Shown: positions 45,774 to 53,717 of the stretch, one piece after another
Position numbering within the stretch: position 1 is the first letter of the stretch
Layout of the letters: every line of letters begins with the position of its first letter
Origin: Streptomyces hundungensis
GTDB taxonomy: Bacteria > Actinomycetota > Actinomycetes > Streptomycetales > Streptomycetaceae
Direction of reading: 5' to 3'
NCBI RefSeq assembly: GCF_003627815.1
Contig: NZ_CP032698.1
Coordinates: 3,410,001-3,474,000 of the forward strand
DNA: 64,000 bases
Translations under genes and position numbers: made by a program
Notes under the pieces: model-generated
Seen by the model: the letters and a program-made list of their open reading frames with translations, nothing else
Told to the model about the DNA's origin: nothing
Databases searched by the model: none

Positions 45774-46000
45774 GGTCGTTCAACTCCCCATGCGCGGCGC
45801 TTAACGCTCTTAATCCTGGCGTGCTTCTCAACGGTACCGCCGTGCGTGGTCGTGCGGTTGCGTAGAGGCAGGAGAGGTCACCAAGGGAGGGAGCCGAGCC
45901 GTGGACTGCAACGGCGTCGCTTGCCGGGGCCTACCGGGCCGAGGTGTCCGCCGAGGGGCCGGCGAACGGCCAGACCGTTCGCATAGCGCTGGGATGGGAA

Positions 46001-46207
46001 ATGACTGACGCACAACAACCGCTCCAGGGCGCCGCGTTGGGCCCGGGCTGTGTCATCTGTGCAGCCGCGAGGAAAGCACGGGCGCGGGCCCATGGGACGG
46101 GCGATCCCATGGGGGTCCGACAGGCAACAGAGATCATCCGCGAACACCTGTCGGGACACGGGCACGGGCACGGGCACGGGCAAGACGCAAGGAGCGCCGA
46201 CGTATGA
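46001..46207 (+). CDS. Small CxxC protein with His-Gly-rich tail, copy 1
   Basis: The 68-residue protein reads MTDAQQPLQGAALGPGCVIC, then AAARKARARAHGTGDPMGVR and a tail SGHGHGHGHGQDARSADV. CVIC may bind metal, and the HG dipeptide run is encoded by a GGGCAC tandem hexamer. I do not recognise the family. GGGATGGGAA precedes the ATG. It overlaps the next gene by four bases (ATGA). A second copy starts at 49707. An upstream in-frame extension (from GTG 45944) is not conserved in copy 2, so I reject it. The preceding 227 bp is the divergent promoter region. Confidence 0.62.
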   Translation: MTDAQQPLQGAALGPGCVICAAARKARARAHGTGDPMGVRQATEIIREHLSGHGHGHGHGQDARSADV

Positions 46208-46452
46208 CGCTGTGTCTCGCTGATCTCCAAGCCATGGACTTCCGTGCTCGCCGGCCCGGCAACGTGGACCCGGGGACGTGTCCCGCCTGCGCCATGGTCG
46301 TCGAGGTGCTGTACGCGGCGGTGGACGAGCACGACCCGCACCTCGTCGACTTCGCCGTGGAACTCGGGGCGCTGCACGCGCTGTTGGGCCACCCCGGGGA
46401 CCACCGACCGGAGCGAAAGAACTTCCTCTCTCAGACTCTGGGGCATACCTAG
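46204..46452 (+). CDS. Small CPAC-motif protein, copy 1
   Basis: The 82-residue protein starts MTLCLADLQAMDF, has DPGTCPACAMVVEVLYAAVD (CxxC), then HDPHLVDFAVELGALHALLG and HPGDHRPERKNFLSQTLG. It is predicted helical and soluble; the family is not recognised. The ATG lies inside the upstream stop (ATGA), so the two small proteins are made together and may form a complex. Over the first 80 codons it is almost identical to copy 2 at 49940; most differences fall in codons 14-20 (RARRPGN versus STRRSDN). It stops 23 codons earlier than copy 2 because CCTGG became CCTAG. Confidence 0.65.
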   Translation: MTLCLADLQAMDFRARRPGNVDPGTCPACAMVVEVLYAAVDEHDPHLVDFAVELGALHALLGHPGDHRPERKNFLSQTLGHT

Positions 46453-49293: not shown

Positions 49294-49706
49294 GGCGCCG
49301 CCTGCCCCTGCCCCGTCCGTGCGTTTCCGCGGCGCATGGGCGGGGCTTCCTACTGCTCTGAACTGGGCACTTTCCAAGGTGCCAGGGTGTAGGGTCCACC
49401 GGCTGGCGGTCGTAGTGGAACTCGCCGTCGTAGTCGTCCTCCAGGATCAGCCCGCCCGTGGCGCGCGCCCAGTCGACGGCCGCCGCGCGCCGGCCGGGCA
49501 GCAGCGGGAGCCCGATCGGGAACTGGGGCGCGGGCGTCATGAGCACCGCCCCCACCCCCTTGTCGCTCCCCAACTCGTCGGCGCGGGTGCCCTGTTCGTC
49601 GAAGGAGAGCGGCGTGGTGCGCAGCCCCGCGAACCCCGGGAGAGGAGTGGTCGTGCCCGGTGAGAATAGGACCGCCGAGGGCCCACGACGGCATAGGCGG
49701 GGAAGA
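49294..49706. other. Intergenic stretch between the XRE gene and small-pair copy 2
   Basis: The only recognisable content is the 234-bp mocR fragment described next, plus about 75 bp containing the ribosome binding site of the gene at 49707. No other gene is visible. Confidence 0.6.
49398..49631 (-). pseudogene. 234-bp fragment of the mocR gene
   Basis: This segment aligns without gaps to 52287-52520 of the intact mocR gene, with about 12 mismatches by eye (roughly 95% identity). It encodes LRTTPLSFDEQGTRADELGS through AVDWARATGGLILEDDYDGE and FHYDRQPV, the middle of the aminotransferase-like domain, without start, PLP Lys or stop. It has the same orientation as the intact gene, 2.9 kb away. 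It is a relic of duplication or recombination. Confidence 0.9.
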
Positions 49707-49943
49707 ATGACTAGCGCACAACCGCCGCTCCAGGGCGCGGTGTTGGGCCCGGACTGTGCCATCTGTGCAGCCGCGAGGAGTGCACGAGCTCGGGCTCATG
49801 GGACGGGCGATCCCGTGGGGGTGCAACAGGCAACAGAGATCATCCCTGAACACCTGTCAAGACATGGGCAGGGGCACGGGCACGGGCAGGGACGCGGGCA
49901 CGGGCAGGGACGTGGACAAGGCGCAAGGAGCGCCGACGTATGA
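49707..49943 (+). CDS. Small CxxC protein with His-Gly-rich tail, copy 2
   Basis: The 78-residue protein reads MTSAQPPLQGAVLGPDCAIC, then AAARSARARAHGTGDPVGVQ, QATEIIPEHLS and a longer HGQGHGHGQGRGHGQGRGQG tail ending ARSADV as in copy 1. The start is supported by GGGGAAGA just before the ATG and by the lack of any homology upstream of it. It overlaps the next gene by four bases. The differing number of tail repeats shows slippage since duplication. Function is unknown. Confidence 0.65.
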   Translation: MTSAQPPLQGAVLGPDCAICAAARSARARAHGTGDPVGVQQATEIIPEHLSRHGQGHGHGQGRGHGQGRGQGARSADV

Positions 49944-50257
49944 CGCTGTGTCTCGCTGATCTCCAAGCCATGGACTTCAGTACTCGACGGTCCGACAACG
50001 TGGACCCGGGGACGTGTCCCGCCTGCGCCATGGTCGTCGAGGTGCTGTACGCGGCGGTGGACGAGCACGACCCGCACCTCGTCGACTTCGCCGTGGAACT
50101 CGGGGCGCTGCACGCGCTGTTGGGCCACCCCGGGGACCACCGACCGGAGCGAAAGAACTTCCTCTCTCAGACCCTGGGGCGCACCTGGTCGAGAGAGCAC
50201 CACCCCCGCGACCCATCGTCCCGCGCGGCGGCTCGGACTCGACAGGGGTGGGCATAA
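49940..50257 (+). CDS. Small CPAC-motif protein, copy 2
   Basis: The 105-residue protein shares its first 80 residues with the protein encoded at 46204 (MTLCLADLQAMDF, DPGTCPACAMVVEVLYAAVD, ERKNFLSQTLG) and extends by TWSREHHPRDPSSRAAARTR plus QGWA. The DNA is nearly identical from about codon 21 onward. It is followed by a 50-bp gap and the small Asp/Gly-rich peptide gene, so it may act in processing, transport or binding of that peptide or its product. Confidence 0.68.
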   Translation: MTLCLADLQAMDFSTRRSDNVDPGTCPACAMVVEVLYAAVDEHDPHLVDFAVELGALHALLGHPGDHRPERKNFLSQTLGRTWSREHHPRDPSSRAAARTRQGWA

Positions 50258-50307
50258 CCGCCGACATGTAATCGCGTGTCGGTTCGCTGATAAGTGGAGG
50301 TACGGAA

Positions 50308-50442
50308 ATGCGCGCATGGTGGCTCACGATGATGGACGGCAACCCCCAGGACGACAGCGACAGCGGTAACAAGCACGGCGGGGGCGGCTCCGAGGAGGGC
50401 GGCAACACGAACGACGGCCAGCGTCCGGCTGACGGTAAGTGA
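50308..50442 (+). CDS. Candidate RiPP precursor peptide, 44 residues, Asp/Gly/Asn-rich
   Basis: The peptide reads MRAWWLTMMDGNPQDDSDSG, then NKHGGGGSEEGGNTNDGQRP and ADGK. It begins with a Trp pair (W4-W5) and has six Asp, three of them in DG pairs (D10, D36, D42), plus NP, NT and ND steps. It has no Cys, so it is not a lanthipeptide. GGAGG lies 7 bp before the ATG, one of the best sites in the island. The stop is 10 bp before a protein-isoaspartate-methyltransferase-like gene, and an Asp methylated in a DG context is the known route to aspartimide in imiditides and related RiPPs. The precursor role is inference. Confidence 0.62.
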   Translation: MRAWWLTMMDGNPQDDSDSGNKHGGGGSEEGGNTNDGQRPADGK

Positions 50443-50452
50443 GTCCGCGCCG

Positions 50453-51631
50453 ATGATTGACCGCGTAGAGGAGGCGGGCCCTTCGGGGCTCGCCTCTGCG
50501 CTCATGAAAAAGGGAGCACTCACAAGCGATTGGTTGCCCGCATTCCATGCGGTGCCCCGGCATCTGTTCCTCCCGGATGCGATCTGGCCCGGCCGCGCCG
50601 GCATGAATCGCCAGACCGACCGCGTGCTCCGCAGCGAGGAACCCGAGGTTTGGTGGTCGGCGGTTTACCGCGATGCGCCGATCACGACGCAATGGGATGA
50701 CGGCGCGCACACCGGCCCCGGAAAGGGCAAGGTTCCGTCTTCCTCCAACTCGATGCCGACCATGGTCTTCTCGATGCTCGATGCACTGAACGTCGGGACA
50801 GGACACAAGGTGTTGGAGATCGGCACCGGCACCGGCTGGAATGCCGCGCTGCTCTCCCATCGGGTCGGCGCTGAGAACGTCGTCACGGTGGAAGTGGACG
50901 AAGCCAGCGCGAGAGATGCGCGGGGTCGTCTGAAAGCGGCCGGATTCGAGCCGCTCACCGTCGTCGGCGACGGGGCCGATGGATACGCCGAGGGTGCCCC
51001 GTACGACCGCGTGATCGCCACCTGCTCCATCGGCAGCGTGCCCCGGCAATGGGTCGCGCAGACGAAACCGGGCGGGCTCATCGTTGCACCCTGGGGGCCG
51101 ACCTACGGCGGGGAAGCGGTGGCGCGTCTCGCTGTGGCCGAGGACGGGACGGCTACCGGGTGGTTCCTCGGGTCGTCTGCGTTCATGCGGCTACGCGCAC
51201 AGCGCACCGAACGGAAGCACGTCCGCGCATACCTCAAGGGCCGGAAGTGGCCGGCGGACGGACGGCAGAGCATGACCAGCGTCTCCCCGGATTCGGTGGG
51301 GGACTGGCCGGTCATGTTCGCCATCGGGGTGCAGGTGCCCGACGCATTCCCGTGGGCCGAGACGTACGACGACGGCTCTTACACGCTGTGGCTGCGGGAC
51401 ACGGCTGTTACGTCGTGGGCAACAGTCGACTTCGTGCCCCGCCGCAAGGAATTCGAGGTCTACCAGTCGGGGCCTCGTGATCTCTGGGACGAGGTGGTCG
51501 CGGCGTACCTCTGGTGGGACGAGCAGGGACGGCCCGGGTTCGAGCGGTTCGGCCTGACCGTGGACGGCGACGGCGAGCGGGCGTGGCTCGACCGTCCGGA
51601 CAACCCCGTCCCGGTCGTCGCGGAACCCTGA
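50453..51631 (+). CDS. PIMT-like O-methyltransferase with extra C-terminal domain
   Basis: The 392-residue protein has the protein-L-isoaspartate methyltransferase core: FHAVPRHLFLPDAIW (about 31-45), PSSSNSMPTMVFSMLDAL (about 96-112), motif I VLEIGTGTGWNAALL (120-134), VTVEVDE (144-150) and PYDRVIATCSIGSVPRQW. About 180 further residues form a C-terminal domain not found in housekeeping PIMTs but typical of RiPP-associated ones. In graspetide, lasso, lanthipeptide and imiditide systems such enzymes methylate a specific Asp, which then closes to aspartimide. The 10-bp gap after the small peptide gene indicates co-expression. No ATP-grasp, lanthionine or lasso enzyme is adjacent. Confidence 0.85.
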   Translation: MIDRVEEAGPSGLASALMKKGALTSDWLPAFHAVPRHLFLPDAIWPGRAGMNRQTDRVLRSEEPEVWWSAVYRDAPITTQWDDGAHTGPGKGKVPSSSNSMPTMVFSMLDALNVGTGHKVLEIGTGTGWNAALLSHRVGAENVVTVEVDEASARDARGRLKAAGFEPLTVVGDGADGYAEGAPYDRVIATCSIGSVPRQWVAQTKPGGLIVAPWGPTYGGEAVARLAVAEDGTATGWFLGSSAFMRLRAQRTERKHVRAYLKGRKWPADGRQSMTSVSPDSVGDWPVMFAIGVQVPDAFPWAETYDDGSYTLWLRDTAVTSWATVDFVPRRKEFEVYQSGPRDLWDEVVAAYLWWDEQGRPGFERFGLTVDGDGERAWLDRPDNPVPVVAEP

Positions 51632-51748: not shown

Positions 51749-53173
51749 TCACGCCCCCACCGCCGCCAGCACCCGCAGCAACGCGTCCAGCGTGCCCGGC
51801 CACGCCGAGTCGGAGGGTGTGCCGTAGCCGACGACGAGGCCGTTCCACTCCGCGGCGTTCGCGTCGGGGTGGCGGAACGCCCCGAGGCCCTGGATGGCGA
51901 GGCCCTGCCACGCGGCTGCTTGGACCACTCTGCGTTCATCGACACCCGGCGGCAGACTCAGCACGACGTGAAGTCCCGCCGCGAGCCCGGTCACTCCGAT
52001 GTCGGGCGCGTGCTCGGCCAGCGCCGCGACCAGTTCGTCCCGCCGGCGCCGGTAGTGCAGCCGCATGCCGCGAACATGGCGGTCGTAGGCGCCGGAGTCG
52101 ATGAACTCGGCGAGCGTGAGCTGGTCCAGCACCCCGCACGAGTCGCCGTGGCCCTTCGCCTCCGCCACGCTTCCGACGAGCGATTCGGGCAACACCATCC
52201 AGCCCAGCCGTAGACCGGGCGCCAGCGACTTGCTGGCCGTACCCATGTAGACGACCCGATCGGGGTCGAGTCCTTGCAGCGCGCCGACCGGCTGGCGGTC
52301 GTAGCGGAACTCGCCGTCGTAGTCGTCCTCCAGGATCAGTCCGCCGGTGGCGCGCGCCCAGTCGACGGCCGCCGCGCGCCGGTCGGGCAGCAGCGGGAGC
52401 CCGATCGGGAACTGGTGCGCCGGTGTCATGAGCACCGCCCCCACCCCTCTGTCGTTCCCCAACTCGTCGGCGCGGGTGCCCTGTTCGTCGATCGAGAGCG
52501 GCGTGGTGCGCAGCCCCGCGTCGCTGAGCAGCTTCCAGTGGAAGTCGAGTCCGTACGCCTCGACCGCCACCTGCCGGGCCCGGCGCGCCCGCAGCACCTG
52601 GCCCATCAGCATCAGGCCGTGCACGAAGCCGGAGCAGACGACGATGCGCTCCGGTGAGGCGTACACGCCGCGTGAGCGGGCCAGATAGTCCGCGAGGACC
52701 GTGCGCAGTTCGACGCGGCCGCGCGGATCGCCGAAGCCGAACGCCTCATGCGGGGCCGCCGCGAGCGCCCGGCGGGCCGCCTTGAGCCACTCGGCGCGCG
52801 GGAAGCGGGCGAGGTCGGGCGAGCCCGCCATCAGGCTGTAGGTGGGCTTGCGGCGGGTCGGCAGCCGGTGGACGCGGCCCCGGTCGGGGCGGGCCGCGGC
52901 GCGCTGGGCCACCCGCGTCCCCGACCCCTGGCGGGCGGTGAGCCAGCCTTCCGCGACCAGCTCGGCGTAGGCGTCGGCGACGGTGTTGCGGGCGATGCCG
53001 AGGTCCGCGGCGAGGGTGCGCGAGGAGGGCAGCCGGGTGCCGGGGGTGAGCCGTCCCCCGCGCACGGCCTCGCGCAGCGCGTCCATGAGCCCGGAGCGCA
53101 GGCCCGCGCCCTTCAGGTCGAGATGGAGATCGACACCGAGCGTTTCCGCCGAAGTGGCCCAGGATTTCACCAT
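51749..53173 (-). CDS. MocR/PdxR-type GntR regulator with aminotransferase-like domain
   Basis: The 474-residue protein has a winged helix domain (about 20-85: GLMDALREAVRGGRLTPGTR, LPSSRTLAADLGIARNTVAD), then a class I aminotransferase-like domain with EAYGLDFHW, TPAHQFPIGLPLLP, EDDYDGEFRY and MGTASKSLAPGLRLGWM, whose Lys would bind PLP. Such regulators sense PLP or amino compounds. The ATG at 53173 is divergent from the AhpD-like gene (47 bp apart) and probably controls it. A 234-bp copy of part of this gene lies at 49398-49631. Confidence 0.9.
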   Translation of the reverse strand: MVKSWATSAETLGVDLHLDLKGAGLRSGLMDALREAVRGGRLTPGTRLPSSRTLAADLGIARNTVADAYAELVAEGWLTARQGSGTRVAQRAAARPDRGRVHRLPTRRKPTYSLMAGSPDLARFPRAEWLKAARRALAAAPHEAFGFGDPRGRVELRTVLADYLARSRGVYASPERIVVCSGFVHGLMLMGQVLRARRARQVAVEAYGLDFHWKLLSDAGLRTTPLSIDEQGTRADELGNDRGVGAVLMTPAHQFPIGLPLLPDRRAAAVDWARATGGLILEDDYDGEFRYDRQPVGALQGLDPDRVVYMGTASKSLAPGLRLGWMVLPESLVGSVAEAKGHGDSCGVLDQLTLAEFIDSGAYDRHVRGMRLHYRRRRDELVAALAEHAPDIGVTGLAAGLHVVLSLPPGVDERRVVQAAAWQGLAIQGLGAFRHPDANAAEWNGLVVGYGTPSDSAWPGTLDALLRVLAAVGA

Positions 53174-53207
53174 GGGAATGGACCATACCCGGGTGCCACA
53201 CGAACCG

Positions 53208-53213
53208 TACGGT
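53208..53213 (+). promoter_or_regulatory. Leaderless-type -10 box (TACGGT)
   Basis: TACGGT ends 6 bp before the ATG at 53220. It lies inside the 46-bp region shared with the divergent mocR gene, where MocR would be expected to bind. Confidence 0.45.
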
Positions 53214-53219
53214 CGTCCC

Positions 53220-53717
53220 ATGACCACCAACGAGAGCAAGACCTACGCACCCGAGCACGCCCCCCGCCTCCCCTGGGCCAAGGCCGCGCCCGAGGTCTAC
53301 AAGGCCATGATCAAGCTGAACGCCGCCGCCGAGCAGGGCATCGATCCGGTGATCGCCGAGCTGGTCAAGATCCGCGCCTCCCAGCTCAACCACTGCGCCC
53401 TCTGCCTCGACATGCACACCAAGGACGCGCTCGCGGCCGGCGAGTCGGTGGAGCGAATCATCCAGCTCAGTGCCTGGGAGGAGTCGGCGCACTTCTACAC
53501 CGAGAAGGAGCTCGCGGCGCTCGAACTGACCGAGGCGGTCACGGTGTTGACCGACGGCTTCGTCCCGGACGAGGTGTACGAGCGCGCCGCCAAGCACTTC
53601 GACGAGGCCGAGCTGGCCCACCTCATCGCGGCCATCACCGTCATCAACGCCTGGAACCGCTTCGGCGTGACCACCCGTGGGGTGCCGGGCCACTACACCC
53701 CCGGCATGTACAAGTGA
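53220..53717 (+). CDS. Carboxymuconolactone decarboxylase/AhpD-like protein
   Basis: The 165-residue protein has the AhpD signature LNHCALCLDMHTKDALAAGE with the CxxC and His of the peroxidase-like site. RIIQLSAWEESAHFYTEKE and LIAAITVINAWNRFGVTTR follow. Members detoxify peroxides or act on small lactones; the CxxC form favours alkylhydroperoxidase activity. It is divergent from mocR, which likely regulates it. Confidence 0.9.
   Translation: MTTNESKTYAPEHAPRLPWAKAAPEVYKAMIKLNAAAEQGIDPVIAELVKIRASQLNHCALCLDMHTKDALAAGESVERIIQLSAWEESAHFYTEKELAALELTEAVTVLTDGFVPDEVYERAAKHFDEAELAHLIAAITVINAWNRFGVTTRGVPGHYTPGMYK

Follow-up and report, generated by a model that had tools for sequence, protein, structure and literature searches.

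The window, by which we mean the whole stretch of 64,000 nucleotides of Streptomyces hundungensis DNA that was analyzed, carries a short peptide gene followed immediately by a gene for a PIMT-like methyltransferase, together with the following features.

50296..50301, + strand: GGAGGT, the ribosome binding site ahead of the peptide gene (6/6 match; position read off by eye)
50308..50442, + strand: putative precursor peptide gene, ATG start, 44 aa (evidence from alignment A1, pairing in 70/72 loci and dN/dS)
50413..50418, + strand: codons of D36-G37, the predicted methylation/aspartimide site (32/32 aligned homologues)
50453..51631, + strand: PIMT-like peptide/protein L-aspartyl O-methyltransferase (PAMT), 392 aa, with a PCMT domain, a SAM motif and WXXXGXP

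A prior sequence-only reading had described a peptide with a strong ribosome binding site, six Asp residues, three DG steps, a DDSDS stretch and no Cys, and each of these attributes was borne out. The GGAGGT site lies 5' of the ATG, the Asp residues occupy positions 10, 15, 16, 18, 36 and 42, and the DG steps fall at 10-11, 36-37 and 42-43. Gly (22.7%) and Asp (13.6%) are abundant, Pro is sparse (4.5%), and the net charge is -4; the core of the peptide family reads NPQDDSDSGNKHGGGG. The peptide stop codon is separated by 10 nt (50443-50452) from the start of the PAMT, whose length of 392 residues and extra C-terminal part agree with the earlier description. Comparison of both proteins with known families, which had been suggested at that time, gave an answer for the enzyme, if below the NCBIfam cut-off, and none for the peptide, for which neither Pfam nor NCBIfam offered a match at E <= 1, and thus no graspetide precursor model either. 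A protein database search returned 20 relatives, those named by their source being hypothetical proteins, one of them additionally labeled BatC protein. AlphaFold2, run on alignment A1, predicted no structure for the peptide (mean pLDDT 58).

The Pfam PCMT domain occupies residues 97-218 of the PAMT (1.8e-27), encompassing the SAM motif EIGTGTG (residues 122-128) and leaving about 170 residues C-terminal to it. Within this extension lies WDEQGRP (residues 355-361), an instance of WXXXGXP, a motif reported from RiPP PIMTs (PMC13001092); when searched for anywhere in the protein, the motif was found in 64 of 70 distinct PAMTs of the clade defined below and also in 6 of 9 from outside it. The nearest NCBIfam model is TIGR04188 (ATP-grasp peptide maturase system methyltransferase), matched over the whole model length at 337.5 bits, under its cut-off of 380. 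A grouping with housekeeping repair enzymes, raised earlier as the outcome that would speak against a specialized role, was not what the models returned: repair PIMT profiles scored 77-109 bits against cut-offs of 159-359 (TIGR00080, 79.1/159; NF001453, 108.8/188; NF010549, 101.2/282; NF010550, 77.1/359). An AlphaFold2 model of the PAMT built from 36 aligned sequences (mean pLDDT 91) had as its top solved Foldseek match, and closest fold, the Thermotoga maritima PIMT 1dl5 (TMt 0.64), which likewise joins a methyltransferase core to a C-terminal extension (reported in PMC13001092). That protein differs in having been deposited as a protein-L-isoaspartate O-methyltransferase and in its 21-22% identity in the fold alignment; according to PMC10787088, it nevertheless shares a clade and the C-terminal domain with RiPP PAMTs.

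Pairing, distribution and conservation of the peptide

When loci were picked by PAMT similarity alone and scanned with an HMM of the peptide core (built from a seed of 11 cores that carries N[T/S][N/S]DG), the peptide was found directly upstream of the related PAMT in 70 of 72 loci (L009-L080, 54 from genome contigs and 18 from genus genomes, with some loci represented twice, e.g. L012/L063). The distance between the peptide stop codon and the alignment-estimated PAMT start in these 70 is -1 to 12 nt; L025, L065 and L066 showed no clear peptide start codon accompanied by a ribosome site. L046 and L080, in which the HMM missed the peptide, seem to represent one and the same locus, encoding a diverged peptide that still contains GHGGxGSDEG. 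The reverse search, beginning from the peptide, found a PAMT adjoining all 25 peptide loci, the window's own included, in a set that overlaps with the PAMT-selected one. The conservation of the small frame beside PIMT homologues, on which the sequence-only reading had staked its proposal, is therefore seen from both directions. The upstream pairing, together with the coding-type codon pattern (dN/dS 0.18), establishes that the small ORF represents a real gene family and not a chance reading frame.

Searches with the peptide matched 22 of 295 genomes of the genus, at 24 places, and 3 of 394 genomes in a sample of the class, every one of them in the window's genus, with one more place coming from the class search. 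Named PAMT matches belonged to Streptomyces, Kitasatospora, Streptacidiphilus and Streptantibioticus, and a threshold of E <= 1e-150 retrieved the PAMT from 15 of 150 genus genomes, the window's own among them. Within the samples searched, the peptide family does not extend beyond Streptomycetaceae, where its occurrence is patchy. A quick tree of 79 PAMTs places the peptide-paired enzymes and that of L080 on one side of a branch with an SH-aLRT of 92, which is a moderate value in a tree with flagged long branches.

Selection on the peptide was assessed over a 27-codon core. Setting aside by hand four variants (L016, L029, L066, L079) from 71 peptides left 67, representing 60 distinct cores, 59 of which accompany a near full-length PAMT and provide 1711 pairs; dN/dS was evaluated where dS lay between 0.1 and 3, which was the case for 1681 pairs. 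The median dN/dS of 0.18 over these indicates purifying selection, and the peptide core was more conserved than the PAMT in 1711/1711 pairs (median identity 88.9% versus 61.9%). Third codon positions were 2.4 to 3 times as variable as second and first positions in a motif-filtered set (57 distinct cores of 71), in which columns held invariant by the regular expression were not counted as invariance. Along the peptide, as seen in alignment A1 (32 peptides hand-picked from the 71, L066, L046 and L080 being absent), about the first ten residues vary and the C-terminal part, rich in Asp, Gly and Asn, is nearly fixed. To judge from this alignment, the pattern is the opposite of that expected from a conserved leader joined to a variable core, and a hypervariable core is absent; a variable product region is common in RiPPs.

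Seven other PAMT loci of the window's own genome showed no peptide of the 44-aa family when scanned with the core HMM. As a separate observation, six further PAMT-like genes in this genome (G000:C1) have a DG-containing small ORF upstream, at the following positions.

G000:C1 323875: L117
G000:C1 402929: L120/L008, matching in two pieces (402929-404085)
G000:C1 518718: L118/L006
G000:C1 3396009: L002
G000:C1 4510952: L004
G000:C1 5162916: L003

The strain carries, then, several pamtide-like units, in addition to a PAMT at 4.56 Mb that neighbors an ATP-grasp gene.

The candidate target residue and substrate recognition

The modification site had been sought at D10-G11 or at another DG step. Conservation favors the second part of that proposal and not the first: among the 32 sequences of alignment A1, Asp is kept at D10 in 12, D18 in 19, D42 in 24, D15 and D16 in 31 each, and D36 in 32, and the D36-G37 step itself is present in all 32. 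Natural variants also keep this DG, although each was seen only once: L016 is without QDD, L066 without the first half of the peptide and L029 without KHGGGGSDEGGN. This conservation and the deletion variants make D36-G37 the best and most likely candidate for the modification site. All 68 distinct peptide tails that the HMM retrieved, those of the three variants included, contain N[T/S][N/S]DG, a count biased towards the motif by a seed that carries it. The only lineage seen without it is L046/L080, whose diverged precursor (MRKPWIVAMGGQENDGQSGAGHGGKGSDEG...) has NDGQ instead and whose PAMT is nested inside the clade. The small ORFs ahead of the six further PAMT-like genes in the window's own genome all contain DG, and four of the six contain DGQ; this lends weak support to a DG target, D and G being abundant in peptides of this kind.

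Other residues were considered and set aside. D10-G11, D18 and D42-G43 were rejected as targets on their retention in 12, 19 and 24 of the 32 homologues, respectively, and D15/D16 were weakly excluded, since L016 and L066 lack QDD. The near invariance of D15 and D16 makes it possible, all the same, that they constitute a second, a different or a recognition site.

A strong positive charge is attributed to type I precursors, and the PAMT is reported to recognize them by charge, through a loop that is itself negatively charged (PMC13001092). The sequence-only reading had set the window's peptide apart from highly basic imiditide precursors, a distinction upheld by its net charge of -4 and by the absence of a conserved basic tail, the last residue of homologues being K, R, E, S, G, H or N, among others. 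Acidity is not unique to this peptide, as acidic small ORFs also precede PAMTs L117 and L118 of the same genome (the one before L117 has no scored ribosome site). The loop at residues 248-275 of the PAMT has a charge of +7 in the window and is positive in most close relatives, but ranges from -2 to +1 in numerous other PAMTs whose peptide has the same core, and the charge of the C-terminal part (216-380) is negative for the most part; comparison across relatives revealed no clear charge complement to the acidic peptide in PAMT loops. Given the net charge of -4 and the lack of a conserved basic tail, the published charge-based model would appear not to carry over to the acidic family. Recognition by the PAMT may instead involve the conserved stretch QDDS...HGGGGS(D/E)EGGN.

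Affiliation with known classes, alternatives and implications

The imiditide or type I pamtide class was described in 2023 (PMC10787088), and 1414 type I members have been counted (PMC13001092), among which the 44-aa subfamily may already be included. The claim of a "new" locus or subfamily must accordingly be narrowed: the class was already published, and what survives of the claim is an acidic, Pro-poor variant. In common with SpaA-SpaM of Streptomyces sparsogenes and NmaA-NmaM of Nonomuraea maritima, the pair combines a short (about 45 aa) Gly/Asp-rich, Cys-free peptide having a conserved Asp beside Gly with a PAMT that has a C-terminal extension of over 100 aa and WXXXGXP; Streptomyces hosts are also shared, and no further class-defining enzyme was found by the ATP-grasp scan and the count of neighboring ORF families described below. 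Type I precursors are reported to be about 45 aa in length and rich in Gly, Pro and Asp, with conserved acidic/basic termini that are typical and not strictly defining (PMC10787088, PMC13001092), and to average 16.8% Pro, 17.3% Gly and 10.2% Asp (PMC10787088). Set against these published averages, and not against individual sequences, the 44-aa peptide differs in its 4.5% Pro and net charge of -4; its family further differs in having no conserved basic C-terminal tail and in a C-terminal part that is nearly fixed across genera, with a variable N-terminus. Type II pamtides, or cysimiditides, share the two-gene architecture of peptide plus PAMT, but contain two CxxCxGxG zinc motifs, of which the 44-aa peptide has none.

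The reading that we favor, with a probability of about three in four, is by analogy that of a two-gene RiPP-type unit, of the imiditide or type I pamtide kind, which modifies one Asp. The 44-aa peptide would be translated just ahead of its PAMT, and the enzyme would use S-adenosylmethionine to place a methyl ester on a single Asp side chain, most likely D36, in the context N-(T/S)-(N/S)-D36-G37. The amide of G37 would then attack the D36 ester to yield an aspartimide, which may either stay or hydrolyze, mainly to isoaspartate. Asp-Gly is a favored aspartimide step, and for the reaction as a whole we infer the chemistry of characterized relatives. Among these, the stand-alone pairs SpaA/SpaM, NmaA/NmaM and FcaA/FcaM, and two more type II pairs, are reported to yield modified peptides (PMC10787088, PMC13001092). 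The absence of a hypervariable core suggests that the peptide would have a conserved cellular or signaling role, and would not be a fast-diversifying weapon.

The genomic surroundings bear most directly on the relation to graspetides equipped with a PIMT-like methyltransferase, whose family TIGR04188 is the nearest curated relative of the PAMT and shares the expected Asp-to-aspartimide chemistry. We take the methyltransferases of fuscimiditide, amycolimiditide and SsfA/SsfM to be TIGR04188 graspetide enzymes. Were the pair a graspetide in disguise, an ATP-grasp enzyme encoded elsewhere would first cyclize the peptide, which has many Asp/Glu residues as well as Ser/Thr/Lys, and the PAMT would add a secondary aspartimide. 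Of 15 pair-bearing genomes, 13 do have a match to the ATP-grasp model TIGR04187 somewhere, 12 of them over the cut-off, although 7 of 14 control genomes gave matches under the cut-off too, so that weak ones mean little. Against this, two pair-bearing genomes (G029, G039) have no match anywhere at E <= 0.001, and in none of the 15 does a match lie within 200 kb of the pair on the same contig. Several pairs sit on short draft contigs, where neighbors past the contig end would be invisible, but four genomes (G000, G031, G051, G105) are single contigs. The nearest match on a pair's contig was about 268 kb off (G051), other matches lying farther away or on another contig. The full-scoring ATP-grasp gene of the window's genome adjoins a PAMT of its own, at 4.56 Mb, and the PAMT of the pair falls under the TIGR04188 cut-off. 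Neither graspetide membership nor a trans-acting ATP-grasp enzyme is supported by the TIGR04187 profile across the 15 genomes, and we consider this reading quite unlikely. A rough count of neighboring ORFs (at least 80 aa, third-position GC at least 0.80; some flanks cut by contig ends) recovered the PAMT in 48 of 55 neighborhoods; the commonest family after it was present in 17 of the 55, and the next, which looks by eye like an HTH regulator, in 9. With no ATP-grasp gene found nearby and no widely shared third gene, the pair looks like a two-gene unit, as are imiditides and type I pamtides, in keeping with the stand-alone peptide and PAMT first proposed.

Further alternatives dispense with modification of the peptide altogether. 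The spacing of peptide stop and estimated PAMT start (-1 to 12 nt) is that of translational coupling, and the small ORF could be a translated leader (uORF) that tunes PAMT translation, the enzyme acting on another substrate; yet selection acts on the amino acids, as both dN/dS and the excess variability of third codon positions indicate, and variants without other parts still keep the DG step, so that this option seems to us quite improbable. Much the same low standing is accorded to the idea that the peptide remains unmodified and serves as a regulator, inhibitor or protein partner of the PAMT, with Asp chemistry occurring elsewhere. A core that is more conserved than the enzyme in every pair compared is what a binding partner would display, and the variable product region is absent; however, the step kept through the variants is precisely Asp-Gly, and the stand-alone pairs tested in PMC10787088 and PMC13001092 were modified. 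The PCMT domain could also belong to a housekeeping L-isoaspartate repair PIMT beside an unrelated small gene. That is very improbable, in view of repair models far under cut-off, the extra C-terminal part with WXXXGXP, the many paralogues in one genome, the patchy distribution (15/150 genus genomes at E <= 1e-150) and the strict pairing with one peptide family.

The family offers a useful test case even though the class itself is known: a sequence nearly fixed across genera, a single best-kept DG and an inversion of charge. The review by Zhu and Link lists both the function of aspartimide peptides and substrate recognition by their methyltransferases as open questions (PMC13001092). With one Asp-Gly kept in every sequence that the HMM finds, and three natural variants retaining it while lacking other parts, the 44-aa peptides constitute a clean test set, and a small, easily expressed pair without a basic tail would allow a direct test of charge-based recognition. 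From the pattern of conservation it can also be argued that at least some pamtides might have a fixed target instead of being variable weapons. A bolder proposal, which we regard as tentative and rather doubtful, is that these peptides constitute a separate acidic pamtide branch in Streptomycetaceae, with a C-terminal part fixed almost throughout across genera, one fixed Asp-Gly site and no hypervariable core, acting as a conserved regulator or as a ligand for a conserved partner and recognized by a code other than charge. If so, the Asp/aspartimide/isoAsp step of acidic pamtides would be a chemical timer or switch and not the making of a diversifying natural product, and the PAMT of this branch would read its substrate through a sequence code distinct from the published charge-pairing.

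Several observations concern the fate and setting of individual pairs. In one genome (G225), two PAMT genes stand side by side on opposite strands (L112/L116), one of which has the GHGGGG peptide; its neighbor, which shares about 47% identity with the PAMT of the window, does not show it. Another locus (L113, in G012) encodes a partial PAMT (about residues 83-362 of the query) with no peptide visible in the 330 nt upstream, and is perhaps a decaying PAMT copy. In the window itself, direct repeats of 88-95% identity lie upstream of the pair (46000-46452 versus 49706-50188) and bracket it (49398-49631 versus 52287-52520). The bracketing repeat is a fragment of a GntR/aminotransferase gene, presumably MocR-like, at 51749-53239 on the minus strand, and the region around the pair may reflect duplication or insertion.
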